From Lachnospiraceae bacterium (GTDB lineage: Bacteria > Bacillota > Clostridia > Lachnospirales > Lachnospiraceae), in assembly GCA_017465475.1 (NCBI GenBank), contig JAFTWC010000038.1, forward strand, positions 1-64,000: DNA of 64,000 nucleotides, read 5' to 3'. The position numbers and the translations under genes are program-made. Under the pieces are notes generated by a model. The model was not told the DNA's origin, made no database searches, and saw only the letters and a program-made list of their open reading frames with translations. Below are positions 4,901 to 64,000 of this stretch, in pieces (within the stretch, counting starts at the first letter, position 1; each line of letters starts with the position of its first letter).

Positions 4901-4901
4901 C

Positions 4902-49537: not shown

Positions 49538-49550
49538 AGTTTTCCTCCTT

Positions 49551-49825
49551 AAAAAATGAAAGGTCAATCCATCCTATAAGGACGAATTGACCGTGGTACC
49601 ACCTTACTTCACAGCAAACACTGCTGCCTCTTGGTCTGTAACGGGACTTCCCGGTAATCTCTACTGCAAATCCTCTCCTGCCATCACAAGAGCCCGATTC
49701 CTTCAAAACCACTGCTCCAAAGCTACCTTCCATAAGCAAGCCTTTACAGGACCTTTCAGCCGGTGAGTCCCGCTCTCTTTCAAGATGACTTATGTACTCC
49801 TCTTTTTCTGCGCATTTTTCGATAT
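49551..49825 (-). ncRNA. T-box riboswitch of valS
   Basis: The minus transcript has the T-box antiterminator sequence GGTGGTACCACGG (49603-49591), followed by a terminator GGTCAATTC... GATTGACC (49592-49562) and TTTCATTTTTT. Upstream stem I has an AGUA-type element near its base. A GUA valine codon at 49726-49724, in GAAGGTAGC, sits about 100 nt from the predicted start and is the likely specifier. Uncharged tRNA-Val should favour readthrough. Confidence 0.9.
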
Positions 49826-49831
49826 GTGTTT

Positions 49832-49860
49832 ATCTTAATCGAACCGTGATAAAAAGTCAA
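49832..49860 (-). promoter_or_regulatory. valS promoter
   Basis: Minus-strand TTGACT (49860-49855), 17-base spacer, TAAGAT (49837-49832). Confidence 0.7.
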
Positions 49861-49912
49861 GCAGATTTTTTTCTTGTAAACAAGTCAGTTTTCCGTCAAT
49901 TCTAAAAAGTGG

Positions 49913-49941
49913 TTGAATGTCAGGTAAATTTATGCTATACT
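49913..49941 (+). promoter_or_regulatory. Promoter of the EAL-protein gene
   Basis: TTGAAT (49913-49918), 17-base spacer, TATACT (49936-49941). Confidence 0.65.
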
Positions 49942-50013
49942 TAAAATGGTATGATGCCGTTGTTGTAACAATAGTGTTTATCTTTAGATTTTTTCAACAG
50001 AAGGGATTACTTT

Positions 50014-52131
50014 ATGGAGCATGTAAATGAAATGCCGCCGACAGGCAAAATTCATCTTGATGAATTAACAGGAATTTACAACCAACAAAGTTTTTTTGAT
50101 TTCACAGAACAACTGCTTACAGAACATCCGCAGGAATCTTTTTGCCTGATTTATTGGAACATCCGTAAGTTCCGTACCACCAATGATTTATTCGGTTGGG
50201 ATGCCGGCAACAAAATATTGGTACACTGGGCCAACACGCTGCGGGAAATGTTACGTGATGAGTTAGCTGTTTACGGCCGTTTGGACCATGATAACTTTGT
50301 CTGCTGTGTTACGGAAGAATTCCTTTCCCGGGATGACTGGACTAAGCTTGGAGAAATCAGCTACTTCACTGAGAAAACCGAGTATCACTTCTATTCCTGT
50401 TGCGGCTTGTATAAAATCACCGACCGTACCCTTCCGCTGTCCAATATGATTGATAAAGCAAAGGCCGCTATGGAGACCATAAAAAATAACTATATGACTT
50501 TGTACGCCTGGTACGATGAAAGCATGTGGAGCAAGCTTTTAGAAGAACAGCGCATGAATACCGAATTTAAAACTGCAATTACGGAAAAACAGTTTAAAGT
50601 ATATTATCAACCGATTTGTCGTTCCAGTGACGGACTTATCACCAGCGCAGAGGCCTTAATCCGCTGGCAGCATCCTACCAAAGGAATGATTTCTCCGGGT
50701 ACCTTTATTCCTTTATTTGAAAAGAACGGTTTTATCAGCGTTTTAGACCGCTATGTTTGGAACGAAGTCTGTGCCATGCAGCAATCCCGATTAGACCAAG
50801 GGCTTGCGACGGTTCCGGTGTCCGTCAACGTTTCCAGAGTGGAGTTTTACAACCCGTCTCTTTGTGACGACATCCGAAACATTGCAAAGAATCACAATAT
50901 TTCTCCGGATTTACTTAAAATTGAAATTACGGAAAGTGCCTATGCCGACAACCCTGTTCAGGTTCTTGAGGCAGTGAAAAAGCTTCATGCCTACGGTTTC
51001 TCCGTTTTAATGGATGACTTCGGAAGCGGCTACTCTTCCCTAAATATGCTGAAAGATTTGCCGATTGACGTATTAAAAATCGACATGCGTTTTTTGGATG
51101 ACTTGGAAAAAAGCCAGAAGGCTTCTATTGTATTAGAATCCATTATCCGTCTGGCAAAATGGATGAAGTTAAGTGTTGTTTCCGAAGGAGTGGAAACCCA
51201 GAAAGAATGGGAATACCTCCGCAGCGTGGAATGCGATGCGGTACAGGGATACTATTTTTACCGCCCGATGCCTCAGGAAGATTTCATTGCCTTATTGGAC
51301 AAAACTGCTGCCAACAGTACAAATCTTCTGTTCCATGCTACACAGGAAATAGACGAGTCTATCTTAAACCTTTTCAATCAAACCAATACCATGGAAAGTA
51401 TTTTGTTTTACAGTATGCTTGGCGGTATGGGATTAATGGAGGTCAGCGGAAACACGGTAGAACTTCTTCGGGTAAATAAAAGCTTCTACGAGGTACTCTA
51501 CGGTTCCACTTCTTTCGAACATAAGATACTGAACATGAAGTTTCCGGCGGAAGAAGAGCGCATTCTTTTGGAACAGTGCCTTATCGCAAAGGAAGAGTCT
51601 AAAATCCAACAGTTCCAGTTACATCACCATCTGGATACCGGTGCTTATGTATGGCTTAGTGTAAAAATACGTTATCTGGGCGGCAACTCTCCGCGTGCAC
51701 TGTTTTTAATTGCAGTCGAGAATATCGAAGAGTTAAAACAGGCGGAGCACAATCATTTTGTTTCTAATTACAGTAATGTTTTGCTGAAATTATTTGACCG
51801 CGTATACCGCTTTGATTATCCTACGGATACCATTGAATTATTGCACTCCCGTGGTGACGACTTTATCGAACCACAGGTTCAATATTCCTTTGCCTCCTTC
51901 TTCCGGCACTTGGCCACGGTTACTTCGGCCAATGAACTGGATAAATTGAACATCATAAAAGATCGGTTCGCTTTGGACGAGACTCTCCGCCAAATTCACG
52001 AGAATTGTCTTACCATCCGATACGAACTTACATCCAATGAAACAGTCACAGACACCACCGCCTATTTCTTCAAAGTCGATTTACCGGATGGCGGACACCA
52101 GTACCTGTGTTGTGTAAAGAAACTATATTAG
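50014..52131 (+). CDS. c-di-GMP phosphodiesterase: degenerate GGDEF plus EAL
   Basis: 705 residues, no membrane helix. The GGDEF-like domain (about 13-165) reads GRLDHDNF at 88-95 where an active site needs GGDEF, so it should not make c-di-GMP. The EAL domain (about 185-430) looks intact: SAEALIRW (EAL 213-215), VNVSR, KIEITESAY, MDDFGSGYSSL, KIDMRFL, SEGVETQ, QGYYFYRPMP. The last 270 residues include a PAS-like segment and an unassigned end. It likely hydrolyses c-di-GMP, with the first domain as a regulatory module. Single gene with own promoter and terminator. Confidence 0.9.
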   Translation: MEHVNEMPPTGKIHLDELTGIYNQQSFFDFTEQLLTEHPQESFCLIYWNIRKFRTTNDLFGWDAGNKILVHWANTLREMLRDELAVYGRLDHDNFVCCVTEEFLSRDDWTKLGEISYFTEKTEYHFYSCCGLYKITDRTLPLSNMIDKAKAAMETIKNNYMTLYAWYDESMWSKLLEEQRMNTEFKTAITEKQFKVYYQPICRSSDGLITSAEALIRWQHPTKGMISPGTFIPLFEKNGFISVLDRYVWNEVCAMQQSRLDQGLATVPVSVNVSRVEFYNPSLCDDIRNIAKNHNISPDLLKIEITESAYADNPVQVLEAVKKLHAYGFSVLMDDFGSGYSSLNMLKDLPIDVLKIDMRFLDDLEKSQKASIVLESIIRLAKWMKLSVVSEGVETQKEWEYLRSVECDAVQGYYFYRPMPQEDFIALLDKTAANSTNLLFHATQEIDESILNLFNQTNTMESILFYSMLGGMGLMEVSGNTVELLRVNKSFYEVLYGSTSFEHKILNMKFPAEEERILLEQCLIAKEESKIQQFQLHHHLDTGAYVWLSVKIRYLGGNSPRALFLIAVENIEELKQAEHNHFVSNYSNVLLKLFDRVYRFDYPTDTIELLHSRGDDFIEPQVQYSFASFFRHLATVTSANELDKLNIIKDRFALDETLRQIHENCLTIRYELTSNETVTDTTAYFFKVDLPDGGHQYLCCVKKLY

Positions 52132-52146
52132 GTTTCTATCTTTCTT

Positions 52147-52185
52147 TAAAAAAAGAGTATCAGTTTCAGACTGATACTCTTTTTG
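52147..52185. terminator. Bidirectional terminator
   Basis: AAAAAGAGTATCAGT / ACTGATACTCTTTTT hairpin between the convergent EAL and Crp/Fnr genes. Confidence 0.92.
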
Positions 52186-52863
52186 TTAATTCCTATGATA
52201 TTCTTTCAAAAGCGTAAACTGATTTTTCCGACATTCTAACACTCCCGCTTTACGCAACTTGCTGATTTCCGCAGACAGCCCGCTTCGGTCCACCTCCAGA
52301 TAATCCGCCAACTCCTGACGGTCAAATTGTACCGTTATACGGTTACTGTTCTGCCTTTTCGCCTGCATCATCAAAAAGGTCATCAGTTTTTCTCTTGTGG
52401 AACGTTTTGAAATAACTTCCAGCTTTTGATGAACCATCAGATTCTTAGTCGCCACCACCTTCATCAAATTATAAATAAGTTGATTGTGAAATCCACACGC
52501 ATTTCCGCACACATGTAAAATGTGCTTCGCATCTAAAAACAACACTTCACACTGTTCCGCGGCCACCACATCCACCGGCATCTTCTGTATATCCGTACAA
52601 GCAAAGGACTCACCAAACATCTGGGACGATTGCAATTCCGTCAGAATACTGCGATTGCCGTAGTAGTCTACACGAAGCACCTGCACAGCTCCGGAAAGTA
52701 CCACTCCGATTCGGCCCACCTTATCTCCTTCAGATAAAATAACTTGATTTTTACCATACCCTCGCACTGTCGCCCCCAAACAGGAAAGCATCGTTAGCAA
52801 CTGTTTCCCGTCAATTCCGGCAAACAGCCCGCATGTTTGCAATATCGATAAATATTTCTCCAT
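52186..52863 (-). CDS. Crp/Fnr-family regulator
   Basis: 225 residues from the ATG at 52863 (TGGAG 6 bases upstream). Cyclic-nucleotide-type beta barrel (about 10-125: LLTMLSCLGATVRGYGKNQVILSEGD, GVVLSGAVQVLRVDYYGNRSIL) and a C-terminal winged helix (about 145-215: FDRQELADYLEVDRSGLSAEISKLRKAG). A few Cys residues are present (C10, C28, C101 region, C137 region), but no clear Fnr Fe-S cluster pattern. It is divergent from a ferredoxin gene whose promoter carries a Crp/Fnr-type palindrome, so it probably activates that gene. Confidence 0.9.
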   Translation of the reverse strand: MEKYLSILQTCGLFAGIDGKQLLTMLSCLGATVRGYGKNQVILSEGDKVGRIGVVLSGAVQVLRVDYYGNRSILTELQSSQMFGESFACTDIQKMPVDVVAAEQCEVLFLDAKHILHVCGNACGFHNQLIYNLMKVVATKNLMVHQKLEVISKRSTREKLMTFLMMQAKRQNSNRITVQFDRQELADYLEVDRSGLSAEISKLRKAGVLECRKNQFTLLKEYHRN

Positions 52864-52876
52864 AAAAATCTCCATT

Positions 52877-52919
52877 TGTTGAATTTTCAACATACTAATC
52901 ACCTTTAGGGTACTATAAT
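52877..52919 (+). promoter_or_regulatory. Crp/Fnr box and promoter of the ferredoxin gene
   Basis: Palindrome TGTTGAATTTTCAACA (52877-52892) and -10 TATAAT (52914-52919) with no good -35 hexamer. With a start predicted at 52926 the palindrome centre is at -41.5, the class II activation position. The box also lies in the leader of the divergent regulator gene, allowing autoregulation. Confidence 0.7.
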
Positions 52920-52958
52920 AAGCTCAAGAAGTCAAGATACAACACAAGGAGGATATAT

Positions 52959-53726
52959 ATGTTACGAAAAATCATAAAAATCGACGAAGAAAAATGCAAC
53001 GGCTGCGGTCAATGTGCTGCTGCCTGCCACGAAGGTGCCATCGGTATGGTAGATGGAAAGGCAAAGCTTTTACGGGAAGATTATTGCGACGGATTAGGTG
53101 ACTGTCTTCCTGCTTGTCCCGTAGACGCCATTTCCTTTGAGGTACGAGAAGCCGCGGCCTATGACGAAGCCGCCGTACAAAAGGCAATGGAACAAAAGCG
53201 GAAGCTTCCGCACCACCCAACGGTTCCGAACAATACAGGAACCGCTTCTTCCGCCGGACATCCGCTCCCATGCGGTTGTCCGGGAATGAATTCCAAGCGG
53301 ATTGTGCGACCAAACCTACCGGAAGAACCTTGCAGTGATACCACGCAAACCGCTCCATCCGTCAGCCGCTTGTCCCAGTGGCCGGTACAGATTAAGCTGG
53401 TTCCGGTAAACGCCCCTTACTTTGACGGCGCAAATCTTTTAATTGCAGCAGACTGTACTGCTTATGCTTACGGACGTTTTCACGAGGATTTTATTAAAAA
53501 CCGCATTACCCTCATCGGCTGCCCGAAATTGGATGAGGGAGATTATACCGACAAACTGACTGCCATTATTGCAAACAATAACATTAAAAGCGTCACCATT
53601 GTCCGCATGGAAGTTCCGTGCTGCGGCGGAATCGAACAAGCTGCAAAACGGGCTCTACAAGCCAGCGGGAAGTTTATCCCGTGGCGGGTGGTAGTGGTTA
53701 CCACGGATGGAAGGCTGTTGGAATAG
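52959..53726 (+). CDS. 2[4Fe-4S] ferredoxin-domain protein
   Basis: 255 residues. The N-terminal ferredoxin domain (about 4-62) binds two clusters: CNGCGQCAAAC and CDGLGDCLPAC with a following P; the second motif has GLG where C-x-x-C is usual, so it may hold fewer ligands. A Pro/Cys linker (CGCPGM near 107) leads to a C-terminal domain (about 135-255) with LLIAADCTAYAYG, ITLIGCPKLDEGDY and VPCCGGIEQA, as in a widespread anaerobe ferredoxin family. Probably electron transfer or redox sensing. SD AAGGAGG. Divergent Crp/Fnr gene is the likely activator. Confidence 0.88.
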   Translation: MLRKIIKIDEEKCNGCGQCAAACHEGAIGMVDGKAKLLREDYCDGLGDCLPACPVDAISFEVREAAAYDEAAVQKAMEQKRKLPHHPTVPNNTGTASSAGHPLPCGCPGMNSKRIVRPNLPEEPCSDTTQTAPSVSRLSQWPVQIKLVPVNAPYFDGANLLIAADCTAYAYGRFHEDFIKNRITLIGCPKLDEGDYTDKLTAIIANNNIKSVTIVRMEVPCCGGIEQAAKRALQASGKFIPWRVVVVTTDGRLLE

Positions 53727-53735
53727 ACCTTATTC

Positions 53736-55361
53736 TTACACCGTCGTATACACACCGATCATGAGAGACAGTTCATCCTCCGGCTTTAAGAAACCGCTTT
53801 TTAATAATCCTTCTACCACCATACCTCGAAGAAACGGTACAGAATGCATACAGAAGTTAAACTGACTCATGAGACGCTTCGGTACTTCCCCACGCATTAC
53901 CGTCTCACAGTATGCTAGATACTCGTCCGCCAGAGCAAGCATTTTTTCGTGAATCGGAAGAAGCATTTCATTATACTTCTCCATCGGCACACCGTAGCGT
54001 AAGGTATCGCTGTCATGTGCCTTAGAATACACACCGAAGGTCACCTCGTACTTGCCCTCCGGGGTCTTACGAACAAAATCCGCCAGCTCCTCCAGTTCGC
54101 GTTCTGAAACCTTATCCGACTCACCCTTCAGTATCTGGTGTAATACCTTTACATTATCCCGCATAACAGCAAAGGTTCGGTCATCCCCCTTTTCAACCTG
54201 CTTATCGGTAACAAACATGTCGATTCTGCCGCCTCCCGGCTCTTCACCGCAAGAATGTCCGACACCGTAAAAGCTCGGTCCGTGATACTCCTGTACTCCC
54301 ATCACATCCCAGCTTCCGCCCCCCGGACGTACCGTATCGTAGTTGAACTGCAGATTTCGTCTATCATAAATCGTCCACTGAACATCATCCGCAAGGCGAA
54401 GTGCCAGTGTCCACTTTTGCTCCTCGTAATCCTGATACTGCCCTAAGATATGGTTGCCTGCCGCAAGTTGCAGCTCTCTGGCAGTCTTTAAGTACTCTTC
54501 CGCAAGCGGTACAAACGCTCCCTGAATCTGTGCCAGCTTGTCCACCATCTTGCGCTTTGCTTCCGCACTGATAATGACAAAATTGGTCTCATAGGTAGCG
54601 GTATCTGCCTTGGTTCCGTTCTTACTGAGCAACGTATCTTCCGCCATTGCTTCCACAAAGCCCTCTAAGTAGGGCATTGCGATACCCAGCTCAATGGACA
54701 GTTCCTGCAAAGTAGACGGATTACGATACGCCTCAATTAAAATGTTCTTACAAATTTTATCGTACATCGGCTCGTCCAAATAACAGTCCGGTGCCCAGTT
54801 TTCGCTTCTGCCTCCGCTCTGACTAAACTCGATTTCCTCCGGTGCATAGCTTAATTTTCCAAATGTTCTTGCCATTTGCATTCCCTCCTTTAACATTTCC
54901 CTTGCTTTTGCAAGTCTCGTTTTAATGGTTCCTTCCGGAACCGAAAGGGTTTGCGCAATGGTGGCTATCCTTTGATTTTCCACATAGTAGGCAACCAAAA
55001 GCTCTCTGTACTCCTTTGTCAGTAAAGACAGCTCCCGACGCAGTTCCTGAATCTCTTCCGGCTGTAATACCTCATCTTCTACGTTGTCCTCTGTGGCGAT
55101 TTGTGCCATTGCTTCTTCATCAAAGATTTCCGCACCGTTTATTTTTTTCTGTTTGACCCACCGGGCAAAACGATTTCTGGCAATCTGCCATACCCAGGCT
55201 TCCATATGCTCCGGCAATGCGCCTTTATGGAGCGCACTTAGGATTTCCGTGGAAATCTCACTGCTTAAATCCTCCGCCGACAGCACATCCCCGGTCTTTT
55301 TCAAACAGAAATAATAAATTTTCTCCAAGAATTCATTGCAATAATATTCTTCCCGTGTCAT
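53736..55361 (-). CDS. ECF-type sigma factor fused to a long C-terminal region
   Basis: 541 residues. Residues 1-165 are a sigma factor: region 2 (YYFCLKKTGDVLSAEDLSSEISTEIL, AWVWQIARNRFARWVKQKK) and region 4 (LSLLTKEYRELLVAYYVENQRIATIAQTLSVPEGTIKTRLAKAREML). Then about 370 residues not found in a normal sigma factor: a winged-helix-like stretch (about 205-260) and an unrecognised domain with a Gly-rich segment (RPGGGSWDVMG ... HSCGEEPGGGRIDMF, about 345-385) and a helical end. It follows a membrane-protein gene after 77 bases. No anti-sigma factor is recognised; the fused region may act as its own control or sensor domain. Confidence 0.85.
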   Translation of the reverse strand: MTREEYYCNEFLEKIYYFCLKKTGDVLSAEDLSSEISTEILSALHKGALPEHMEAWVWQIARNRFARWVKQKKINGAEIFDEEAMAQIATEDNVEDEVLQPEEIQELRRELSLLTKEYRELLVAYYVENQRIATIAQTLSVPEGTIKTRLAKAREMLKEGMQMARTFGKLSYAPEEIEFSQSGGRSENWAPDCYLDEPMYDKICKNILIEAYRNPSTLQELSIELGIAMPYLEGFVEAMAEDTLLSKNGTKADTATYETNFVIISAEAKRKMVDKLAQIQGAFVPLAEEYLKTARELQLAAGNHILGQYQDYEEQKWTLALRLADDVQWTIYDRRNLQFNYDTVRPGGGSWDVMGVQEYHGPSFYGVGHSCGEEPGGGRIDMFVTDKQVEKGDDRTFAVMRDNVKVLHQILKGESDKVSERELEELADFVRKTPEGKYEVTFGVYSKAHDSDTLRYGVPMEKYNEMLLPIHEKMLALADEYLAYCETVMRGEVPKRLMSQFNFCMHSVPFLRGMVVEGLLKSGFLKPEDELSLMIGVYTTV

Positions 55362-55438
55362 GAAATACTTCCTTTCTTAACCCTTTCACTCATATAGTGT
55401 CGGGAACTAAGAAACGGTTTTATTTTTTCAGAAAAATT

Positions 55439-56269
55439 TTAATTTGCTTCCAACAGCTCCGGCAAACGCATTCCTTCCTTCACAGAAAAGCGTGACCAAT
55501 GCAACCCGGTAAAACGGTCTCTGTCGGTATTATATTCCTTGATCTCATCCGCATAGTAAAGCGTCCCGTCCTCTGTTATTAATAAAAGTGCCACCGTCCT
55601 GTGCCGGCTCTCGTCATCCAAAGAAAAACTGTACAATACCTTTCCCTGAACAGTAAGCGGTATCTTGGCCTGTACATAATAGTCCTGATACAGCCCGGCA
55701 AGTTCCTCACTATCCGGTGTAGTTTTCTTTAATTTCACCCGCCAAAACTCATCCACTGTTCCAAGCAAAAAACCAACCTGCATCTTATCATAGTCCACAA
55801 ATATGGTATCGGTAGTAAACTCCTCAAGCCCTAAAATGCCGTCACAGGAAATATCATTTTCGTTAAAGGAAATCTGTTCCTCCGCCACCTTACTCATTCG
55901 TTTTGCCGAACCTTTTTGATAAACCCGTTCGATTTCATAACGGAATACATGCAGCAGCACTGCAATGGCTACCACTGCACACACCACTCCGACGGTTATG
56001 TAAAACTTCTTCGCCGGTACTTTTTTTACCACCGTCACCTTGTTGCGCACGATGTAGCAAATCTCATACACAAGACACACCGGAAGTATGGGAACCAGCG
56101 TCATACCGAGCAAAGCCCCCAACACACCAAGCAAAAAGCCGTCCCATCCGTAGCAGGTATTAAAGAAAAATCCCACTCCGAAAACAGCTCCTAAAATACC
56201 GTTTACCGGCACAAAAAGCCATGGAAGAAAGGAAATCAAAAATAATATTTTTGCAACTTTTGTTTTCAT
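55439..56269 (-). CDS. Membrane protein upstream of the sigma-fusion gene
   Basis: 276 residues from the ATG at 56269 (AGGGGGC upstream). Three N-terminal helices (ILFLISFLPWLFVPVNGILGAVFGVGFFF; FLLGVLGALLGMTLVPILPVCLVYEI; FYITVGVVCAVVAIAVLLHVF) and a soluble C-terminal domain of about 150 residues with alternating beta strands, probably outside. No known family recognised. Position before an ECF-type sigma gene makes an anti-sigma or signal-input role possible, but it has no zinc-binding anti-sigma motif. Confidence 0.75.
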   Translation of the reverse strand: MKTKVAKILFLISFLPWLFVPVNGILGAVFGVGFFFNTCYGWDGFLLGVLGALLGMTLVPILPVCLVYEICYIVRNKVTVVKKVPAKKFYITVGVVCAVVAIAVLLHVFRYEIERVYQKGSAKRMSKVAEEQISFNENDISCDGILGLEEFTTDTIFVDYDKMQVGFLLGTVDEFWRVKLKKTTPDSEELAGLYQDYYVQAKIPLTVQGKVLYSFSLDDESRHRTVALLLITEDGTLYYADEIKEYNTDRDRFTGLHWSRFSVKEGMRLPELLEAN

Positions 56270-56352
56270 ATGTAGCCCCCTAGAACATACCAACTTTCAA
56301 TTACATGCTCATTTTATCATATGAAACATTAGCCGTCAAATAACTCACTCGC

Positions 56353-56604
56353 TTATGCCCTCTCTACCTTTTCCCAAAAAGTCACCGGTACGCTTTGCTT
56401 TTTATGGCTACATCCTTTACAACTTTTGCATCCACCTCCACACTGCGAAGAAGTATCCATTACGGTTTTCTTCACAAATCCAAGCTGTTCATAGCGTTCC
56501 AACTGAGCCGTAACCATTTCACAGGAACTACCGATTTTCTCCGCCATCATTGCAGTGGAACAGATTTCCTTCGTATCAAGTGCATCCAATAATGATAGTT
56601 TCAT
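56353..56604 (-). CDS. FeoC-like winged-helix protein with Cys cluster
   Basis: 83 residues from the ATG at 56604 (GAGGGG upstream), overlapping nothing but beginning 7 bases past the feoB stop. A winged-helix-like fold (LLDALDTKEICSTAMMAEKIG, VTAQLERYEQLGFVKK) followed by CGGGCKSCKGC near 55-65, a probable Fe-S or metal site. FeoC proteins regulate FeoB levels or act as oxygen/Fe-S sensors. Named by context and the Cys pattern. Confidence 0.78.
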   Translation of the reverse strand: MKLSLLDALDTKEICSTAMMAEKIGSSCEMVTAQLERYEQLGFVKKTVMDTSSQCGGGCKSCKGCSHKKQSVPVTFWEKVERA

Positions 56605-56611
56605 AGTCCCC

Positions 56612-58612
56612 TCACATGAAAATGTTTGTAATGTGGTATGTAACACCGGAAAGAATCAACGCTGATACGATATAATATAATGCGATTTTCAGAGTCCATT
56701 TTAAGGAATGGGTTTCATTATAGGTAGACGCAACCGCCATCATACAAGGCACATTGAAGGTCACCGCAACAATCAGGGCCAGTCCCTCCGGCTTTGAAAT
56801 TGTTGCTGCCATTATTTCCGTAATTGCAGCATCTGCGGAAGTCACATTCGTTGCCATGTCAATTATGGAACCTTCTCCTGTAAACACTACGCTGAATACA
56901 CCAAGCACCCCTTCCTTTGAAATTGCGGATGCAATAAACGCCATAAATGACTGCCAGCTCAGGCCGAACAGTTTTGTTACAGGTTCAATGGCTTCTCCGA
57001 TTTTCTGAAGCAACGATGTCTCCCCCTCGTGAAAGGAATAAGATATCACCCAGAATACCGTAGCTATCACAAACACTACAATAAATGCCTTCTTGAATGT
57101 CCCCCACACGTTATTTAACGTGGTTCTGATAATATCCTTCCAACGTGGTTTGTGATAAGGCGGAAGCTCCATAATCAGTCCTGCACGATTTTCCACCGGG
57201 CTTAATTTTCTTCCAAAAATTTTAGCAGTTACAAACATATGCAAAAACATTAAGGCAAACAAAAAGATTACAACCAAAACACTTCCCCAACCGAAAAATG
57301 CAGTTGTAAGGGTTGGAATGACAGAAAAAATCGCGCCGCACGGCACTGCCCACGCCAATGCAATAGTAAGGAGCTTTTGTCCCCAATTATCAAGCACTCT
57401 TGCTCCTGATGCTCCCCCCATTGTACAGCCGAAGCTCATAAGAAGCGGCATCACCGATTTTCCCTGTAACCCCAGCTTATTCATTACATTATCAAACACA
57501 TAGGAAACACGAGCCATATAGCCCACCTGCTCAATGTAGCCAAATACCAAATTAACCCCAAACACAAAGCCTACCATCGCAACCACCCATCCGACAGACA
57601 TGCAAACCGATGTATTAATCAGGTCAGAAAGCCAAATAGGACCGCCCACCAAAGATATCAATGTAGTTACGAATGAGGATAACGGCGGTATAAGTGCAAA
57701 GCCCAACCCCATAAACGGCGAAGCAATCAACATGGAACCGCACAATGCAGCAAGAACGATTCCGATTGCAATCCATTTTCCTTTTTTCTTATCGATTGCC
57801 GCGCGATCAAATTTCGTTAGAATTTCAGAAGTTGACTTCTGTCTTATGACAGCCCCGTCAAGCAATTCCTCTATCCAAGCAAACTTACAGTCACTTGTAA
57901 TAAGACTGCCGTTCTTCGCCTTTTGCATAAAGGCGTTTACAGCTTCCTTGTCAGCAAGCATATCAGCAACTACCTTATCACCATCCATAAGCTTTGCCGC
58001 AATCCATTCTACCGAATAATGTTTCATACCGTTTTTCGGAGTTAACGCTAATGCTTCATTATAAAGCTCCGTTTGCCGATACCCTGCAAATAAGGTGTCT
58101 GCATTCAAATACCTCGGACTTTTCAATGCTTTTTCAAATGACCTATGTAACTTGTCATACTCCCTGCGCTCGGTGGCGTTCATAGCGATAACCGGAATCC
58201 CTAACTTTTCTTCCAATACCGAAATATTAATTGTTTTCCCCTTCTGTACGGCAACATCCGTCATGGTAAGCACCAGCATAGTCGGCGTATGAATCCCGGC
58301 ATAGTCAGCAAGCATAAAAAGACTTCGCTCCAATTGTGAGGCATCGGCCAACACACATACCAACTCCGCTTCTCCCGATGCAATATAATCGCGAGTCACA
58401 ATTTCCTCGTCAGAATTAGCGGAAAGGCTGTAAGAGCCAGGAAGATCAGCAACTGTATAAGTTGTATCGTTATATACAAACGTTCCTTCTTTTTTCTCTA
58501 CCGTTTTTCCGGGCCAATTTCCCACATGCTGCCGCGCCCCCGTAAGATTATTAAAAACAGTTGACTTTCCTGAGTTCGGTTGTCCCAGAAGCACAATTTT
58601 ACGTTCTTTCAT
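56612..58612 (-). CDS. feoB: Ferrous iron transporter FeoB
   Basis: 666 residues. N-terminal G domain: G1 GQPNSGKS (10-17), DLPGSYSL (about 58-65), TMTD (about 115-118). A GDI helix follows, then a membrane part of about 8-11 helices with the two Gate motifs (about 340-610), including FGVNLVFGYIEQVGYMARVSYVFD and SFGCTMGGASGARVL. It imports Fe2+ across the membrane under anoxic conditions. Its ATG directly follows the feoA stop with no gap, so the two are coupled. Somewhat shorter than the Gram-negative form. Confidence 0.96.
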   Translation of the reverse strand: MKERKIVLLGQPNSGKSTVFNNLTGARQHVGNWPGKTVEKKEGTFVYNDTTYTVADLPGSYSLSANSDEEIVTRDYIASGEAELVCVLADASQLERSLFMLADYAGIHTPTMLVLTMTDVAVQKGKTINISVLEEKLGIPVIAMNATERREYDKLHRSFEKALKSPRYLNADTLFAGYRQTELYNEALALTPKNGMKHYSVEWIAAKLMDGDKVVADMLADKEAVNAFMQKAKNGSLITSDCKFAWIEELLDGAVIRQKSTSEILTKFDRAAIDKKKGKWIAIGIVLAALCGSMLIASPFMGLGFALIPPLSSFVTTLISLVGGPIWLSDLINTSVCMSVGWVVAMVGFVFGVNLVFGYIEQVGYMARVSYVFDNVMNKLGLQGKSVMPLLMSFGCTMGGASGARVLDNWGQKLLTIALAWAVPCGAIFSVIPTLTTAFFGWGSVLVVIFLFALMFLHMFVTAKIFGRKLSPVENRAGLIMELPPYHKPRWKDIIRTTLNNVWGTFKKAFIVVFVIATVFWVISYSFHEGETSLLQKIGEAIEPVTKLFGLSWQSFMAFIASAISKEGVLGVFSVVFTGEGSIIDMATNVTSADAAITEIMAATISKPEGLALIVAVTFNVPCMMAVASTYNETHSLKWTLKIALYYIVSALILSGVTYHITNIFM

Positions 58613-58837
58613 TTACATTACCTCCACTACGATTTGCTCACTTTCCTCTCTGTTGAGGGCAATCATTGTATCCCTGCCGTAAACAAGAAGAGGGGTTGGC
58701 TTAACATTTTGAAGCATCTCCACAACACAGCCAATGTTCAACCCGATTGCTGTAATCCGCGTAAGATACCGCTTATCGCCTTTTATGGCGATGATTTTCG
58801 CTTTCTGTCCACCAGAAAGCTCGGTCAATTTTTTCAT
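58613..58837 (-). CDS. feoA: Ferrous iron transport protein A
   Basis: 74 residues, SH3-like FeoA domain (AKIIAIKGDKRYLTRITAIGLNIGCVVEML, ending EQIVVEVM). FeoA assists FeoB on the cytoplasmic side. ATG at 58837 after AAAGGAG. First gene of feoA-feoB-feoC; a strong palindrome lies 30 bases upstream. Confidence 0.95.
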   Translation of the reverse strand: MKKLTELSGGQKAKIIAIKGDKRYLTRITAIGLNIGCVVEMLQNVKPTPLLVYGRDTMIALNREESEQIVVEVM

Positions 58838-58866
58838 AATATTACTCCTTTAGTTAATTTTTTCAA

Positions 58867-58882
58867 GTTAGCATTAGCTAAC
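58867..58882. promoter_or_regulatory. Candidate iron operator of feoAB
   Basis: GTTAGC-ATTA-GCTAAC, followed by CTTA. The extended site resembles DtxR/IdeR boxes (TTAG...CTAACCTAA). A TATAAG sequence on the minus strand just upstream could be the -10 box, so the site would overlap the transcription start. The TetR regulator next door is an alternative binder. Confidence 0.55.
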
Positions 58883-58892
58883 CTTATAAAAT

Positions 58893-58925
58893 AGAAAAAT
58901 TTCAGAGCTTTCCCCTGAAATTTTC
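58893..58925 (-). terminator. Terminator of the tetR-like gene
   Basis: Minus strand AAATTTCAG ... CTGAAATTT hairpin, then TTCTATTTTATAA. It lies between the TetR stop and feoA. Confidence 0.75.
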
Positions 58926-58932
58926 TTATTTC

Positions 58933-59544
58933 CTATCTCATTTCCAACGCAGACTTCCATGCGCCATCATAAAACTCATAAATAAACCGGATGCATTCGA
59001 TTGCCTTTTCTTTCGGCATATCATGACGAATAATTTCATATAAGCCTGTAATATACATCGTTGCAGTAATATGAATCTGTTCCTCGGTGAAAGACTTTTT
59101 CACAAATCCTTCCCGCTTCAATAGTTGAATCAAATGCGCGGATGACTTTTCTTCCATCGTTACCAATGTATCCAAAAAGCCTTCGTATTTTGTCCCTTTC
59201 GAGCATACGATAAGCAACTTAAATTCATCAAAATGCCGGTATATGTAGTCAATCCAGCCTTCTTCAAACGTCGAATAACCATTACCTACATGCTCTCTTA
59301 TCACATCCGTGTCTATCTTTCGCATTTGTTCTTCACAAATACAATAAAACTCTTCTGCCACAGCTGCTACAAGCGACTCAAACATGGCCTCCTTACTTGC
59401 ATAATGCCGATACACTCCGGCAGGAGTTATCCCTGCCTGCTTTGCAATATGATTGAGGGATGCTTTTTCAAACCCTTTTTCAAGAAATTCACGTCGCATA
59501 CATTCTTGTAATCGTTTGTTTGTAGCTGTTTTATCCTTTGGCAT
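58933..59544 (-). CDS. TetR-family regulator
   Basis: 203 residues from the ATG at 59544 (GAGG 5 bases before; the frame's GTG two codons upstream is too close to that site). N-terminal helix-turn-helix (LNHIAKQAGITPAGVYRHYASKEAMFESL, about 30-58) and a helical ligand domain. It precedes feoAB in the same direction, separated by a terminator. GCTAAC-like half-sites occur in its own leader as well as in the feoA operator, so a link to the iron genes is possible but unproven. Confidence 0.88.
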   Translation of the reverse strand: MPKDKTATNKRLQECMRREFLEKGFEKASLNHIAKQAGITPAGVYRHYASKEAMFESLVAAVAEEFYCICEEQMRKIDTDVIREHVGNGYSTFEEGWIDYIYRHFDEFKLLIVCSKGTKYEGFLDTLVTMEEKSSAHLIQLLKREGFVKKSFTEEQIHITATMYITGLYEIIRHDMPKEKAIECIRFIYEFYDGAWKSALEMR

Positions 59545-59607
59545 AGACACCTCATAAGTAAATACTATTAACTCTCCCAGTTAGCATAGCACAACTCCAT
59601 TCATTTG

Positions 59608-59745
59608 TCAATTATTTCTTTTCCGAATTCTGACATAATATTTCGTCTCATCCTCGTGATGAATCTTACCGCCGTTTTTAAGCATTACCTTTAGGGATGC
59701 CGGATTATCCTTGTTTACTCTAAGATAAATTTCCTCCTCCGGCAC
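59608..59745 (-). pseudogene. C-terminal remnant of a GNAT acetyltransferase
   Basis: The minus frame reads LRVNKDNPASLKVMLKNGGK then HHEDETKYYVRIRK, the usual last 40 residues of a GNAT acetyltransferase. The acetyl-CoA-binding part is absent: upstream the frame runs into the 3' end of asnS. Hence a truncated relic, probably left by a deletion that brought it next to asnS. Confidence 0.75.
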
Positions 59746-59779
59746 ATTTTCGTCCCAACAGCCCTTAACCGCCGTCCCT

Positions 59780-61111
59780 TTAAAAGAGAATCGTGCCCGG
59801 TGTCCTCGGATAGGCAATGACATCACGGATGTTCTCCATACCGGTAATGTAGCGCATCATTCGCTCCACACCCAATCCGAAGCCGCTGTGTACACAGCTT
59901 CCGTACCGTCTGAGATCACAATACCAAGCATAATCCTCTTCTTTAAGACCGCATTCTTCGATACGTTTTTGTAACTTTTCCAAGCGATGCTCTCTTTGGC
60001 TGGCTCCTACGATTTCTCCTAACTTCGGAAACAAAAGGTCGGTGGCGGCTACCGTTTCTCCATCGTCGTTCTGGTACATGTAAAAGGCTTTCTGTCCCTT
60101 CGGATAATCGGTTACAAATACAGGACGTTTAAATACTTCTCCCGCCAAATACCGTTCATGCTCCGTCTGAATCGGAGTGTCCATGGACGCCGGAATCTGA
60201 AACTGTTCACCGGATTCCATTAAAATCTTTACTGCTTCCTTGTACGGAACTCTTGCAAACTCGGTAGTCACCACTTGCTCCAGTTTTTCTACAACTCCCG
60301 GTTCTACAAAGCGGTCAAAAAATTCCAGTTCTTCTCTTGCCTCCGTAAGCACTGCCCGGATGATGTATTTGCACATCGCTTCGATGGTGTCCATCAGCTC
60401 CGACAGATCGCAGAACGCCATCTCCGGCTCCACCTGCCAGAACTCCGCCACATGGCGCGGGGTGTTGGAATCCTCTGCCCGGAAGCTTGGTCCGAAGGTA
60501 TAGACTCGTCTCAGCGCCTGGGCAAACGGTTCTACATGAAGCTGTCCGGTTACGGTAAGGCAGGTTTCTTTTCCAAAGAACTCTTCTGTCTTTAACCGGA
60601 ACACCTCACCTGCACCTTCTCCGTCACAGGAAGTCATACAAGGACTTTGTACATAGGTAAACCCTTCTTTGTACAAAAACTCCAGGATAGCGTGAGTCAA
60701 TACGGAACGTACCCGAAACACTGCGGAAAACAAGTTCGTTCTCGGTCTAAGATGGGGAATGGTGCGCAAATATTCGTTACTGTGACGCTTCTTCTGAAGC
60801 GGATAGTCGGCATCCGAATCTCCCATCACCGTGATTTCTTCTGCCAGCACTTCAAAAGGCTGTTTCGCTTCCGGCGTAAGTTTCAATGTGCCTGTTGCCA
60901 ACACACATGCACCGAGACTAAACCCAGTCTCAACGGCCTTTGACAAATCTACTACCACCTGAATGCTTTGCATGCAAGTGCCGTCACCTACTTCCACAAA
61001 ACCTACTTCTTTGCCGAGACGTTTTGTCTTTACCCATCCGCTGACCGTCACTGTCTGACCGGCAAGTTCCTCGTACTGTCCCATAAATTGTTTCACTGAT
61101 AAAAGTTTCAT
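59780..61111 (-). CDS. asnS: Asparaginyl-tRNA synthetase
   Basis: Charges tRNA-Asn. 443 residues from the ATG at 61111 (GGAGG upstream). N-terminal OB-fold anticodon domain (about 15-105: TVTVSGWVKTKRLGKEVGFVEVGDG), then a class II core: motif 2 FRAEDSNTPRHVAEFWQVEPEMAF (about 210-233) and motif 3 SGFGLGVERMMRYITG (about 412-427). The NTPRH and FW.VEPE sequences fit AsnRS rather than AspRS. Preceded by an Asn-codon leader and terminator. Confidence 0.95.
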   Translation of the reverse strand: MKLLSVKQFMGQYEELAGQTVTVSGWVKTKRLGKEVGFVEVGDGTCMQSIQVVVDLSKAVETGFSLGACVLATGTLKLTPEAKQPFEVLAEEITVMGDSDADYPLQKKRHSNEYLRTIPHLRPRTNLFSAVFRVRSVLTHAILEFLYKEGFTYVQSPCMTSCDGEGAGEVFRLKTEEFFGKETCLTVTGQLHVEPFAQALRRVYTFGPSFRAEDSNTPRHVAEFWQVEPEMAFCDLSELMDTIEAMCKYIIRAVLTEAREELEFFDRFVEPGVVEKLEQVVTTEFARVPYKEAVKILMESGEQFQIPASMDTPIQTEHERYLAGEVFKRPVFVTDYPKGQKAFYMYQNDDGETVAATDLLFPKLGEIVGASQREHRLEKLQKRIEECGLKEEDYAWYCDLRRYGSCVHSGFGLGVERMMRYITGMENIRDVIAYPRTPGTILF

Positions 61112-61136
61112 AAGATGTCCTCCTTTTCTTTGGGAA

Positions 61137-61185
61137 CGAAAAAGGACCACCTTCCTTGAATTTGAGTTCAAAAAAAGTGGTCCTT
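61137..61185 (-). terminator. Attenuator terminator before asnS
   Basis: Minus strand AAGGACCAC ... GTGGTCCTT with inner TTGAA/TTCAA, then TTTTTCG, lying upstream of the asnS start. The 5' arm can alternatively pair with GTGGTTTTT at 61214-61206 (9 pairs with wobble), so terminator and antiterminator exclude each other. Confidence 0.85.
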
Positions 61186-61262
61186 ATATTCTTTATTTCA
61201 GAATTAAAAACCACAGTCCAAAAGGCATCTGCCAATCGGACTGCAGTCACGATTGACGATGC

Positions 61263-61310
61263 CTAAATATTATTATTATTGTTCATAGCAACGATAACGT
61301 AAGTTTTCAT
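61263..61310 (-). CDS. asnS leader peptide with five Asn codons
   Basis: A 15-residue frame, MKTYVIVAMNNNNNI, starting 10 bases after AAGGGG and 28 bases or so into the predicted transcript. Codons 10-14 are AAC AAT AAT AAT AAT. Its stop codon overlaps the 5' arm of a hairpin (GATGCCT / AGGCATC, 61258-61264 with 61223-61229). An alternative pairing, CAGTCC (61243-61238) with GGACTG (61219-61214), competes with it. This is the architecture of ribosome-mediated attenuation, in which slow reading of Asn codons alters folding. I cannot decide from the sequence which fold is favoured by stalling. Confidence 0.85.
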   Translation of the reverse strand: MKTYVIVAMNNNNNI

Positions 61311-61344
61311 TCTGAAACATCCCCTTGTTTTATGTTTGAGACAG

Positions 61345-61374
61345 AGTTTAGCACATAATATGTGAAGTTGTCAA
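61345..61374 (-). promoter_or_regulatory. asnS promoter with a palindrome in the spacer
   Basis: Minus-strand TTGACA (61374-61369), 18-base spacer, TAAACT (61350-61345). The spacer holds CACATAATATGTG (61352-61364), a perfect 13-base dyad of unknown purpose. Confidence 0.65.
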
Positions 61375-61382
61375 GCAGTTTT

Positions 61383-62135
61383 TTATTTTCTCGCCACTAC
61401 CGTAAACTCTCCCGGTACTTTGTCATTCTCCCATGCCGGATGCTCATCGAATCGCTGCATAATAAATCCACACCCAATCACGCCATTGATAATTTCGCTG
61501 ATGGTATATTTCCGAAGGCTGCATTTCGGCATCTGTCTTCTTATCTCTTCCGGATAAAATCTGGCGTGAGCCATCTCTCCCTCGTAAATGTCGGTGGAAA
61601 AATAACCCATGGTCGGACTCTCCAAATGTAAAGTATCCTGTATTTTCGTAAATGGATGAAAATCACTGCAAATCATTTTTCCGCCCGGCGTAAGTATGGA
61701 ATACATTACCTGCATGAATTCATCAATGTCATGGAAATAATGCAGGATTCCGCCTTCCATAAATACCACATCAAAGTATGCTCCGTAGGTGTTCAAATCA
61801 ATTTCCAGCACATCTCCTACCACATAATTAAGCTCCGTCTTTGCAGCCGCTGCCGTTTCCGTTGCATAACGCTTGTTATCCTCAGAAATGTCAAACACCG
61901 TCACCTCTGCCCCCAGTAAAGAAAGCGGAATCGCTTTCTTTCCGCAGGAACCGCAAATATTTGCCACCTTGATTCCTTCGTATGTGTCAAAGTATGGCGC
62001 ATATTTTCGTAACATCTTAACCGGATTTTCAACATCCTGCTTCGCCCGTTCCTCCGGTGTTCCGCTTTGCTTCACCCAAAATTCATAAGCATCATACTCC
62101 CAAGCTGCCTTGTTCTTCTTACTGTACTCTCTCAT
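61383..62135 (-). CDS. Class I SAM-dependent methyltransferase
   Basis: 250 residues from the ATG at 62135 (GGAGGA 8 bases upstream). Rossmann motif I VANICGSCGKKAIPLSLLGAEVTVFDIS (about 57-84) with GSCGKK in place of ExGxGxG, motif II-like DVLEID, MEGGILHYFHDIDEF near 120-135, and the C-terminal EFTVVARK. Substrate not identifiable. It lies 30 bases after the ABC exporter genes, so perhaps co-transcribed. Confidence 0.87.
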   Translation of the reverse strand: MREYSKKNKAAWEYDAYEFWVKQSGTPEERAKQDVENPVKMLRKYAPYFDTYEGIKVANICGSCGKKAIPLSLLGAEVTVFDISEDNKRYATETAAAAKTELNYVVGDVLEIDLNTYGAYFDVVFMEGGILHYFHDIDEFMQVMYSILTPGGKMICSDFHPFTKIQDTLHLESPTMGYFSTDIYEGEMAHARFYPEEIRRQMPKCSLRKYTISEIINGVIGCGFIMQRFDEHPAWENDKVPGEFTVVARK

Positions 62136-62164
62136 GTAACCATTCCTCCTTCTTTCTCTTCTTA

Positions 62165-62959
62165 TCACGACCCACAGGATTTATAGTTTCTTACCCCCGC
62201 ACACCATACGCCGTAGCAAATCGCCAGAAACACCACCACCCCTACCGGATACAGTCCCAGTACCCGGTTCGTACTTCTTCCCAACAGAAACTGTAACGGA
62301 TAGTACTGCACCAGCGTATAAGGAATCACAAAGGTACAAAACCGCAGTACCCCTCTCCCGTACACATCAATAGGGTACTTGCCGTGTTCTTTTGCGCCGT
62401 AGGTTAACGCATTCAAGATGGACGTATCCTCAATGGTAAAGAAACAGAAGCTGGCTCCCAACATATACAGCCCGATAAACAAAAAGGTTGCGCCCACTAT
62501 CATAAGGGCCAGAGTAAGTGCCGTCAGCAAATTCCAACTCACTTTACTTTCTGCAATTCCGATACAAAGAGTAATGGTGGATGTAATTAGAGGCCCGGTT
62601 CTGCCGATTTCAAACCGGGTGCCCATAATCTGCAAAATCGGACTGCAAGGGCGTAAAAGCATCCGGTCAAATTCACCGCTTTTCACGATTCCCGAAAACA
62701 CCTTAAAGCCGTTGCCGAACAACTCTGCCAAGGTAAAGGCCATATGCATGACGGAAAAACAAAGCAGCACGTCCCCATAGGTATAGCCTTTGATTTCCGT
62801 CAGACCGTCAAACAAAAAGCGAATGGCTAAAAACTCGGTAAAGGCAATCATACACCGTCCGAATATCATAAGCCCGAAGGAAAGCTTATACTCCATAATA
62901 CTTCTGACACAAATAGCCGCATAGCGGATATACAAGGAAATACTTTTTCTCAGACTCAT
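62165..62959 (-). CDS. ABC-2 type exporter permease, second
   Basis: 264 residues from the ATG at 62959 (GGGAGGT 7 bases upstream). Six hydrophobic helices; the segment FSGIVKSGEFDRMLLRPCSPILQ (about 90-112) is typical of the ABC-2/DUF990 permease group. It begins 4 bases after the preceding permease stop and would form a heterodimer with it. Substrate unknown. Confidence 0.87.
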   Translation of the reverse strand: MSLRKSISLYIRYAAICVRSIMEYKLSFGLMIFGRCMIAFTEFLAIRFLFDGLTEIKGYTYGDVLLCFSVMHMAFTLAELFGNGFKVFSGIVKSGEFDRMLLRPCSPILQIMGTRFEIGRTGPLITSTITLCIGIAESKVSWNLLTALTLALMIVGATFLFIGLYMLGASFCFFTIEDTSILNALTYGAKEHGKYPIDVYGRGVLRFCTFVIPYTLVQYYPLQFLLGRSTNRVLGLYPVGVVVFLAICYGVWCAGVRNYKSCGS

Positions 62960-62963
62960 CTCA

Positions 62964-63767
62964 TCAACCTCCCTGTACCACAATCTTTTTTTCAACAAAC
63001 TTCCATGTACACAGGCCCGCTGCCACCAAAATCACCAGCCAAAGTACCTGCTTTGCCATCACCGGTCCTAAATCTGCCACAGGCAAATCCCCGCTGTATA
63101 CACGGAACGGAACATTCTGCATATAAGGAAAAGGCAACCATTCCACCACCTTCCGAAATCGCTCCGGAAAGAAGGGAAGTGGAATCACATTTCCCATGAA
63201 AAAGTCCGCAGAACCAAGCAACACCATACGCCATCCTTGGGGAGAAATGGTGAAAAAGCAAAGCATATTCACAAACATGCAAAGAGCCACCGCAACGCCC
63301 ACTGCAAGCACTAACGTAACAAGAAACAGTACAAAGGCTTCTATACTCACCGGTAAACTCATCCGTAAGGTTCCCGGAAGCAAAAACGCGCAAATAAGCA
63401 CCGGAATACACCGAAGCAGGGCCTCCGAACCACGACCTCCCACAATGCGGGCAAACCACATGGAATACACGGAAACCGGTCTGCATAGTTCATAAGAAAC
63501 TCCGCCGTTTTGGATCAAAGAAAAGATATCCTTATCGCCGGTCCATGTCGAAAACAATGCCAAAAACGCTTCCTTCAACCATATGTATGTCACGATGGAG
63601 GAATACTCCATAGGAAGCCCCGTTCCCATGGCTTCCGCTATGGCCTTAAAGGCAAAACACTCCATGATACCCCAAATGAGCTGGGTAGTCAGAGCTGTTA
63701 TCGATGCCATTCGGTACTGTAGTCCTGATGCAAAGCGAACCTTGAAAAACATATAATACTTTCTCAT
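62964..63767 (-). CDS. ABC-2 type exporter permease, first
   Basis: 267 residues, start after GGAGGG. Six helices with the related segment DIFSLIQNGGVSYELCRPVSVYSMWF (about 80-105) at the same place as its partner. Encoded 9 bases after the ATPase gene, so the three genes form one ABC exporter. Confidence 0.88.
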   Translation of the reverse strand: MRKYYMFFKVRFASGLQYRMASITALTTQLIWGIMECFAFKAIAEAMGTGLPMEYSSIVTYIWLKEAFLALFSTWTGDKDIFSLIQNGGVSYELCRPVSVYSMWFARIVGGRGSEALLRCIPVLICAFLLPGTLRMSLPVSIEAFVLFLVTLVLAVGVAVALCMFVNMLCFFTISPQGWRMVLLGSADFFMGNVIPLPFFPERFRKVVEWLPFPYMQNVPFRVYSGDLPVADLGPVMAKQVLWLVILVAAGLCTWKFVEKKIVVQGG

Positions 63768-63776
63768 AGCACCCTC

Positions 63777-64000
63777 CTACATAATGTCCAGCTTTTTGTA
63801 GAGAGCCGCCATGACATGGTCCAGGTTTATACCGGACTGCGCACCTAAAGATTCCTCATCCGATACTCCGGCACCAATCGTAATATTCCCGGCATTTTCC
63901 GGTGCATCTGCCGTCTCACCGATGGCAGCATTTCGAAGGTCTTGCAGGGTTCCGTCAAGCAGAATCTGTCCTTTTCCGATGAGAATGACACGTTCCGCAA
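63777..64000 (-). CDS. ABC transporter ATP-binding protein, C-terminal part only
   Basis: The frame is open from the right window edge to a stop at 63777-63779 (74 codons visible). It reads AERVILIGKGQILLDGTLQDL, the usual end of an ABC-2 ATPase nucleotide domain, then a short acidic/Gly tail ending KKLDIM. Walker A, signature and Walker B lie outside the window. It precedes the two permease genes. Confidence 0.85.
   Translation of the reverse strand, partial: AERVILIGKGQILLDGTLQDLRNAAIGETADAPENAGNITIGAGVSDEESLGAQSGINLDHVMAALYKKLDIM

Follow-up and report, generated by a model that had tools for sequence, protein, structure and literature searches.

Introduction

Aminoacyl-tRNA synthetase genes of the Firmicutes are usually controlled by T-boxes. 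In the leader attenuators of the enterobacterial trp and his type, transcription is decided, through rival hairpins, by whether a ribosome stalls within a short leader frame or reaches its stop codon, and the leader of the asnS gene described here appears to follow the same logic. It differs from the enterobacterial type in that its hairpin A would be the permissive one and its hairpin B an anti-antiterminator, and in a possible additional pairing between the leader start region and the antiterminator.

Among the systems closest to this leader, a His-codon leader has been predicted from sequence upstream of hisS* and hisZ of Bacillus (Naville and Gautheret 2010, PMC2965389). The hisS* leader resembles the asnS leader in its occurrence in the Firmicutes, in the combination of a stretch of cognate codons with a predicted terminator and in its position before a duplicated gene of a synthetase family. 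It differs from it in its codons (His there, Asn here) and in its host (Bacillus there, Lachnospiraceae here), and the ordinary hisS of Bacillus has a T-box whereas the ordinary asnS of the present genome is without a T-box match. His-leader attenuators of his operons are described for the B. cereus group, the Eubacteriales and the Erysipelotrichales (PMC9413887); these leaders, also of Firmicutes, present three to five consecutive His codons right before the attenuator, with its antiterminator and terminator, but they precede biosynthetic operons and carry His codons. Likewise, the uORFC-8-2 motif before cysS of the Rhodobacterales (PMC8632094) places an aminoacyl-tRNA synthetase gene behind a leader attenuator with cognate codons, although it belongs to Alphaproteobacteria and has two Cys codons. 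Precedents exist for the mechanism, for the phylum and even for the setting of a duplicated synthetase. In the literature searched, with subscription papers and preprints outside its scope, we found no Asn-specific leader attenuator, no such leader before asnS and no case from the Lachnospiraceae, and the word asnS is absent from the searched passages of PMC8632094, PMC2965389, PMC11109978, PMC6429828 and PMC4833913.

Organization of the asnS leader

The window, that is, the whole stretch of 64,000 nucleotides that was analysed, contains on its minus strand an asnS gene for a putative asparagine--tRNA ligase of 443 aa (59780-61111), the gene under the proposed control. In the leader upstream of it, a short frame is followed by hairpin A, by hairpin B as its rival, and then by an antiterminator and by an intrinsic terminator, which lies last before asnS. 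From its sequence and from modelled foldings, we consider it very probable that this leader is a ribosome-mediated transcription attenuator for a second AsnRS, itself probably acquired, with charged tRNA-Asn as the signal sensed.

The initial annotation had described a 15-codon frame with a ribosome site of its own and five consecutive Asn residues, and precisely such a frame is found at 61310-61263 of the minus strand. It encodes MKTYVIVAMNNNNNI* in 15 codons (ATG AAA ACT TAC GTT ATC GTT GCT ATG AAC AAT AAT AAT AAT ATT TAG), with the five Asn codons at 61283-61269 and a Shine-Dalgarno-like AAGGGG (61321-61326, minus strand) placed 10 nt 5' of the leader ATG. A pattern count finds five consecutive AAY codons only once in the 64 kb, at 61283-61269 of the minus strand, against a mean of 0.02 in 100 shuffles, two of which contained a match. 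A frame starting from the ATG at 61320 (MFQNENLRYRCYEQ) was also considered and rejected, as it is without a regulatory codon run; the equivalent ATG is present in five of the six leaders compared below and is TTA in the sixth (L037). Further upstream, a promoter-like site (61345-61374, minus strand) is formed by TTGACA (61374-61369), 18 nt and TAAACT (61350-61345), the second hexamer being preceded by TG. By eye, a similar site lies 5' of the leader frame in all six species, and AAGGGG, GAGG or AGAGG serves as the Shine-Dalgarno-like sequence across the six leaders. Since the 701-base region contains three promoter-like sites against 1.3 in shuffles, the promoter-like site alone proves little.

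The helices, all on the minus strand, overlap one another. Segment c, around the leader start (61309-61319), can pair with c' (61194-61204), which lies in the upper part of the antiterminator, and this c:c' helix has 8-11 bp in all six leaders. The 5' arm of hairpin A (61250-61264) begins inside the leader stop codon and its 3' arm (61223-61238) has one bulged A. The 5' arm of hairpin B (61236-61248) overlaps the loop and upper stem of A, and its 3' arm, b' (61209-61221), overlaps the 5' arm of the antiterminator, GUGGUUUUUA (61205-61214). The 3' arm of the antiterminator (61177-61186) is in turn held in common with the 5' arm of the intrinsic terminator (61142-61185), a 19-bp stem followed by T's. 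The GUGG of the antiterminator lies in the 3' arm of B, and B is therefore taken to be an anti-antiterminator. The mutually exclusive pairings that had been noted earlier, namely AGGCATC with GATGCCT, CAGTCC with GGACTG (within a 13-bp helix) and GTGGTTTTT with AAGGACCAC, are all present, and the strong terminator claimed before asnS is found between the leader frame and the gene. The leader has a folding energy of -77.2 kcal/mol, and its shuffles average -47.3 (z -6.8), none of 200 folding as well.

Identity and origin of the second asnS

The product of the gene scores over the equivalog cut-offs of TIGR00457 (560 bits; cut-off 342.6) and NF003037 (574; cut-off 414). In the six species that carry the leader, the window (W) and the loci L031, L032, L033, L034 and L037, this second copy keeps 99 of the 103 positions that are invariant in 61 other AsnRS. 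All six second copies are without about 17 residues after residue 175, which none of the 61 other enzymes lacks; in motif 2, residue 214 is D in all six and N in 60 of the 61 others, none of which has D. The genome of the window holds its ordinary asnS at C29:6258-7637, 54% identical to the asnS of the window. Likewise, two asnS matches occur in each of the six carrier genomes, those of L034 and L037 included, and the ordinary copy has no leader; in fact, the leader model gave no match on the six ordinary loci (L119-L122, L130 and L131). The genomes of L035, L036, L038 and L044, with AsnRS 61-66% identical, have one asnS match each. In the five other carriers, which are metagenome-assembled genomes, there is a slight chance that the second asnS comes from mixed bins.

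A tree was built from 57 AsnRS, hand-chosen among the fetched sequences with none dropped for length. The six second copies form one group (100/100) and belong to a larger group of 19 rows (100/100), whose other members are Oscillospiraceae-type and further clostridial enzymes; the family and ordinary enzymes make up a separate group of 25 rows (100/98). As the second copies group with Oscillospiraceae-type and not with Lachnospiraceae enzymes, the gene was probably acquired horizontally; this is the plain reading of a tree in which the long branches of L044, L054, L056, L057, L061, L066, L099 and L101 leave the deep forks unsure. Within the flanks compared, L034 and L037 share no other gene with positions 48001-64000 of the window, so that the pair of leader and asnS is found at more than one genomic location.

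Downstream of the second asnS, the window keeps a C-terminal remnant of a GNAT acetyltransferase gene (59620-59745, minus strand; 42 aa, 90% identical). This gene is whole in L031 and L033 and reduced to 15 residues in L032. The GNAT found downstream in L037 is another one, 34.5% identical to that of L031 over 55 residues only, and none was found within 900 nt downstream in L034. A GNAT gene as fixed partner of asnS was rejected, given that the one of L037 differs and none was found in L034.

On the other side, upstream of the leader, 61383-63998 holds a methyltransferase gene, an ABC-2 permease gene (PF06182) and another permease-like gene; all three are common to L033, the two permeases to L032, and none is in the compared flank of L031.

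The lack of about 17 residues and the D214 of the six second copies, together with the GNAT gene or remnant downstream in four, allow a further reading, in which leader and gene would make up a stress or immunity module: inhibition of the ordinary AsnRS would be the sole condition under which a foreign, altered AsnRS is made, and the leader would serve as the sensor of the inhibitor. We regard this reading as unlikely, though worth keeping in mind.

Distribution and conservation of the leader

A protein scan of genome contigs returned 179 relatives, of which the best 80 were taken and five were close. A covariance model (R1), built from the six leaders, matches five of these best 80 of 179 loci, all of them carriers at 78-94% AsnRS identity; the upstream flank of L035 among the 80 has only 81 nt and those of L045, L075, L089 and L091 are also short. 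In a set of 50 asnS loci, searched on both strands, R1 matches six, all from carriers, and it matches one place per carrier genome. In samples of more than 40 genomes, which were scored with stricter filters, the genome of the window is the sole match among 397 genomes of the family and among 392 of the order, the other known carriers evidently lying outside these two samples. At genus level, R1 matches one of six genomes in the genus of G405, one of 101 in the genus of G406 and four of ten in the genus of the window, the latter being exactly the four with a window-like asnS. The leader pattern was found in one of 391 genomes of the class and, in one scan, in no viral contig.

The five other carriers are hind-gut Lachnospiraceae of water buffalo, water deer, sheep and roe deer, and in the protein scan their AsnRS are 94% (L031, L032 and L033), 80% (L034) and 78% (L037) identical to that of the window. 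The comparison comprises six sequences, four of them close to one another. The leader peptides are MKTYVIVAMNNNNNI in W and L031, MKTYVMTTMNNNNNI in L032, MKTYVIVAMNNNNNS in L033, MRTYAIIITVNNNR in L034 and MKTYIAVVMNNNNI in L037, with five Asn codons in W, L031, L032 and L033, three in L034 and four in L037. In all six the Asn run stops one codon short of TAG, whose AG opens hairpin A, and the leaders of L034 and L037 differ by an in-frame gap of 3 nt. The use of AAC and AAT differs within the runs, L032 having AAC as its second Asn codon and its three close relatives AAT. Where nucleotides are conserved at the start of the frame, they coincide with segment c, which is able to pair with the antiterminator.

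Across the six leaders the middle of the peptide is variable and the Asn run is kept, which argues against a leader that responds to a general slowdown of translation or to a ribosome-targeting antibiotic, the Asn run merely slowing the ribosome. Leaders that have such a role do occur, as upstream of BmrC/BmrD in B. subtilis (PMC4191407) and, in the Firmicutes, as the uORFC-6-1 motif before hflX (PMC8632094); the gene controlled here is, however, the cognate synthetase, and we hold this explanation to be improbable.

The same order of helices is found in the six leaders. Compared species by species, the lower stem of hairpin A is an identical 7 bp in all six, extended to 8 in L034 by one extra pair. 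Hairpin B has 13 bp in W, L031, L032 and L033, and in L034 and L037 it has 9 bp of different sequence, ACCACAGC with GCUGUGGU. The main antiterminator stem has 8-11 bp, and the core of the terminator pairs in all six, with different letters in L031. On a MAFFT alignment, hairpin A comprises 15 pairs, 12 of them invariant and one with a double change, with all 90 cells paired, and hairpin B comprises 13 pairs, one with a double change, with 86.7% of 75 cells paired. In L034 and L037 the register of B is shifted, and the alignment count therefore scores parts of it as broken there. Both hairpins exceed their slid controls in cells paired and in covariation score, although one slid control of B has two pairs with double changes. 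Covariation beyond shuffles was found neither for A (72 of 500) nor for B (204 of 500) in these six sequences, a number which gives the test little power, and covariation as a proof was dropped. Of the alignment proposed by the initial annotation, then, the conservation of Asn codons and paired segments is borne out in six of six leaders and covariation beyond shuffles is not; the case named there as contrary, related genomes that keep the hairpins but lack the Asn run, was not encountered, since both are present in each of the six carriers.

The absence of covariation beyond shuffles is what might be expected from a constitutive terminator preceded by a chance AAT repeat, with a weakly expressed asnS behind it, and AAT tracts can grow by slippage. 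Against this stand the AAC codons within the Asn run and the maintenance of run, frame and helices across six species, at AsnRS identities of 78-94% between the window and the other five; together with the folding contrast reported below, which is rare among shuffles in four of the six, they make this explanation extremely improbable.

In hairpin A, the bulged A and the ten pairs of the lower part are identical in the six species although other parts change, and more than base pairing may be selected there. Ten consecutive invariant pairs are also what the binding site of an RNA switch might look like, one that binds tRNA directly or another ligand and in which the short frame is incidental. 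In contrast to this, conservation extends to the Asn run, the stop codon and an in-frame 3-nt gap, the overlap of the invariant arm with the stop codon is what a ribosome-timed switch requires, and no Rfam family matches the leader at the gathering score, where the highest match below that score is a plastid family on the other strand. Such a switch therefore seems to us very improbable, and a T-box or other known RNA was rejected for the leader on the same Rfam result. The only match at gathering score in the window is a T-box at 49575-49819, before the gene called valS in the initial annotation, which had placed valS under a T-box and seen none before asnS: the RF00230 model has 19 matches in the genome, 13 of them over the cut-off, and none at the second or at the ordinary asnS.

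In L031, L034 and L032, the stretch between terminator and asnS is long (157 nt at 4844-5000, 120 nt and 107 nt, respectively), and by eye a further hairpin-like repeat lies in it in L031 and L032.

Folding with a ribosome on the leader

Starting from the observed parts of the leader, their conservation, the computed alternative foldings, the identity of the gene and its status as a second copy, we infer stalling, read-through, what happens in untranslated leaders, and a response to asparagine or to failure of AsnRS, in the following manner. When charged tRNA-Asn is short, the ribosome would stall early in the Asn run, hairpin A would form ahead of it, the GUGG in b' would stay free, and the antiterminator GUGGUUUUUAAUUCU...AGAAUAUAAGGACCAC could then form and let RNA polymerase read into asnS. 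When charged tRNA-Asn is ample, the ribosome would reach TAG and cover the 5' arm of A, hairpin B would form and take GUGG from the antiterminator, and the terminator would follow. In an untranslated leader, the start region may pair with the upper arm of the antiterminator, which would also favour termination.

The probability of the antiterminator was computed in partial transcripts ending before the 3' arm of the terminator, with a ribosome mask of 29 nt. With the A site on the first Asn codon it is 0.99, 1.00, 0.18, 0.89, 0.77 and 1.00 in W, L031, L032, L033, L034 and L037, respectively, and with the ribosome at the stop codon, where B occupies the arm of the antiterminator in all six, it is 0.20, 0.03, 0.00, 0.15, 0.00 and 0.01. 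When hairpin A is held, the values on the first Asn codon become 1.00, 1.00, 0.99, 0.89, 0.77 and 1.00. In these computations a stall on the first Asn codon thus favours the antiterminator in five of six species at equilibrium and in six of six with A held. The exception, L032, fails at equilibrium because its B is too stable; hairpin A is finished earlier than b', and with A held L032 reaches 0.99.

According to the model, the stall must fall early in the run, the last Asn codon behaving like the stop codon except in L037. On the fourth Asn codon the antiterminator is still at 0.91 in W, 0.96 in L031 and 0.87 in L033, and on the last one it is at 0.24 in W, 0.32 in L031, 0.00 in L032, 0.18 in L033 and 0.03 in L034, being high only in L037 (0.95), which keeps the antiterminator for a stall on any of its four Asn codons. 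L034 keeps it on the first only (0.77, 0.37 and 0.03 along its run). The contrast between stall and stop was matched by 8, 0, 77, 26, 0 and 2 of 300 shuffled spacers, in the same order of species; it is clear in four species, weak in L033 and absent in L032. With these exceptions, the masked foldings, with predicted read-through for a ribosome on the first Asn codon and predicted termination once it is at the stop codon, support the ribosome-mediated attenuation by charged tRNA-Asn that the initial annotation had suggested.

At equilibrium, the terminator prevails in complete transcripts whatever the state, and the choice must therefore fall while transcription proceeds, as it does in other attenuators. 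When c' has just been made and no ribosome is present, c:c' pairing is at 1.00 in all six. About 20 nt later, equilibrium favours the antiterminator in four species (0.94 in W, 0.99 in L031, 0.60 in L033 and 1.00 in L037), so that termination of untranslated leaders is something that we infer. When a second ribosome is placed on the leader start in the stop state, the antiterminator reaches 0.68 in W, 0.68 in L033 and 0.83 in L034, and 0.25 in L031, 0.20 in L032 and 0.06 in L037. The stop state thus blocks the antiterminator poorly in W, L033 and L034, where c:c' seems to be needed for tight termination.

Discussion

The presence of an ordinary asnS elsewhere in the genome, of which the initial annotation was unaware, changes what an attenuator at the second copy would be for. 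We hypothesize that the leader serves a back-up AsnRS, called upon when charging of tRNA-Asn by the ordinary enzyme falls short. A spare synthetase under a leader-peptide switch is proposed here and predicted for hisS*, which suggests that acquired or duplicated copies gain ribosome-timed control repeatedly. The question which follows is why a gut bacterium with an ordinary asnS keeps a foreign, differently built copy that would be switched on only when the charging of tRNA-Asn fails, and a possible answer is that AsnRS is naturally inhibited in the gut of herbivores.
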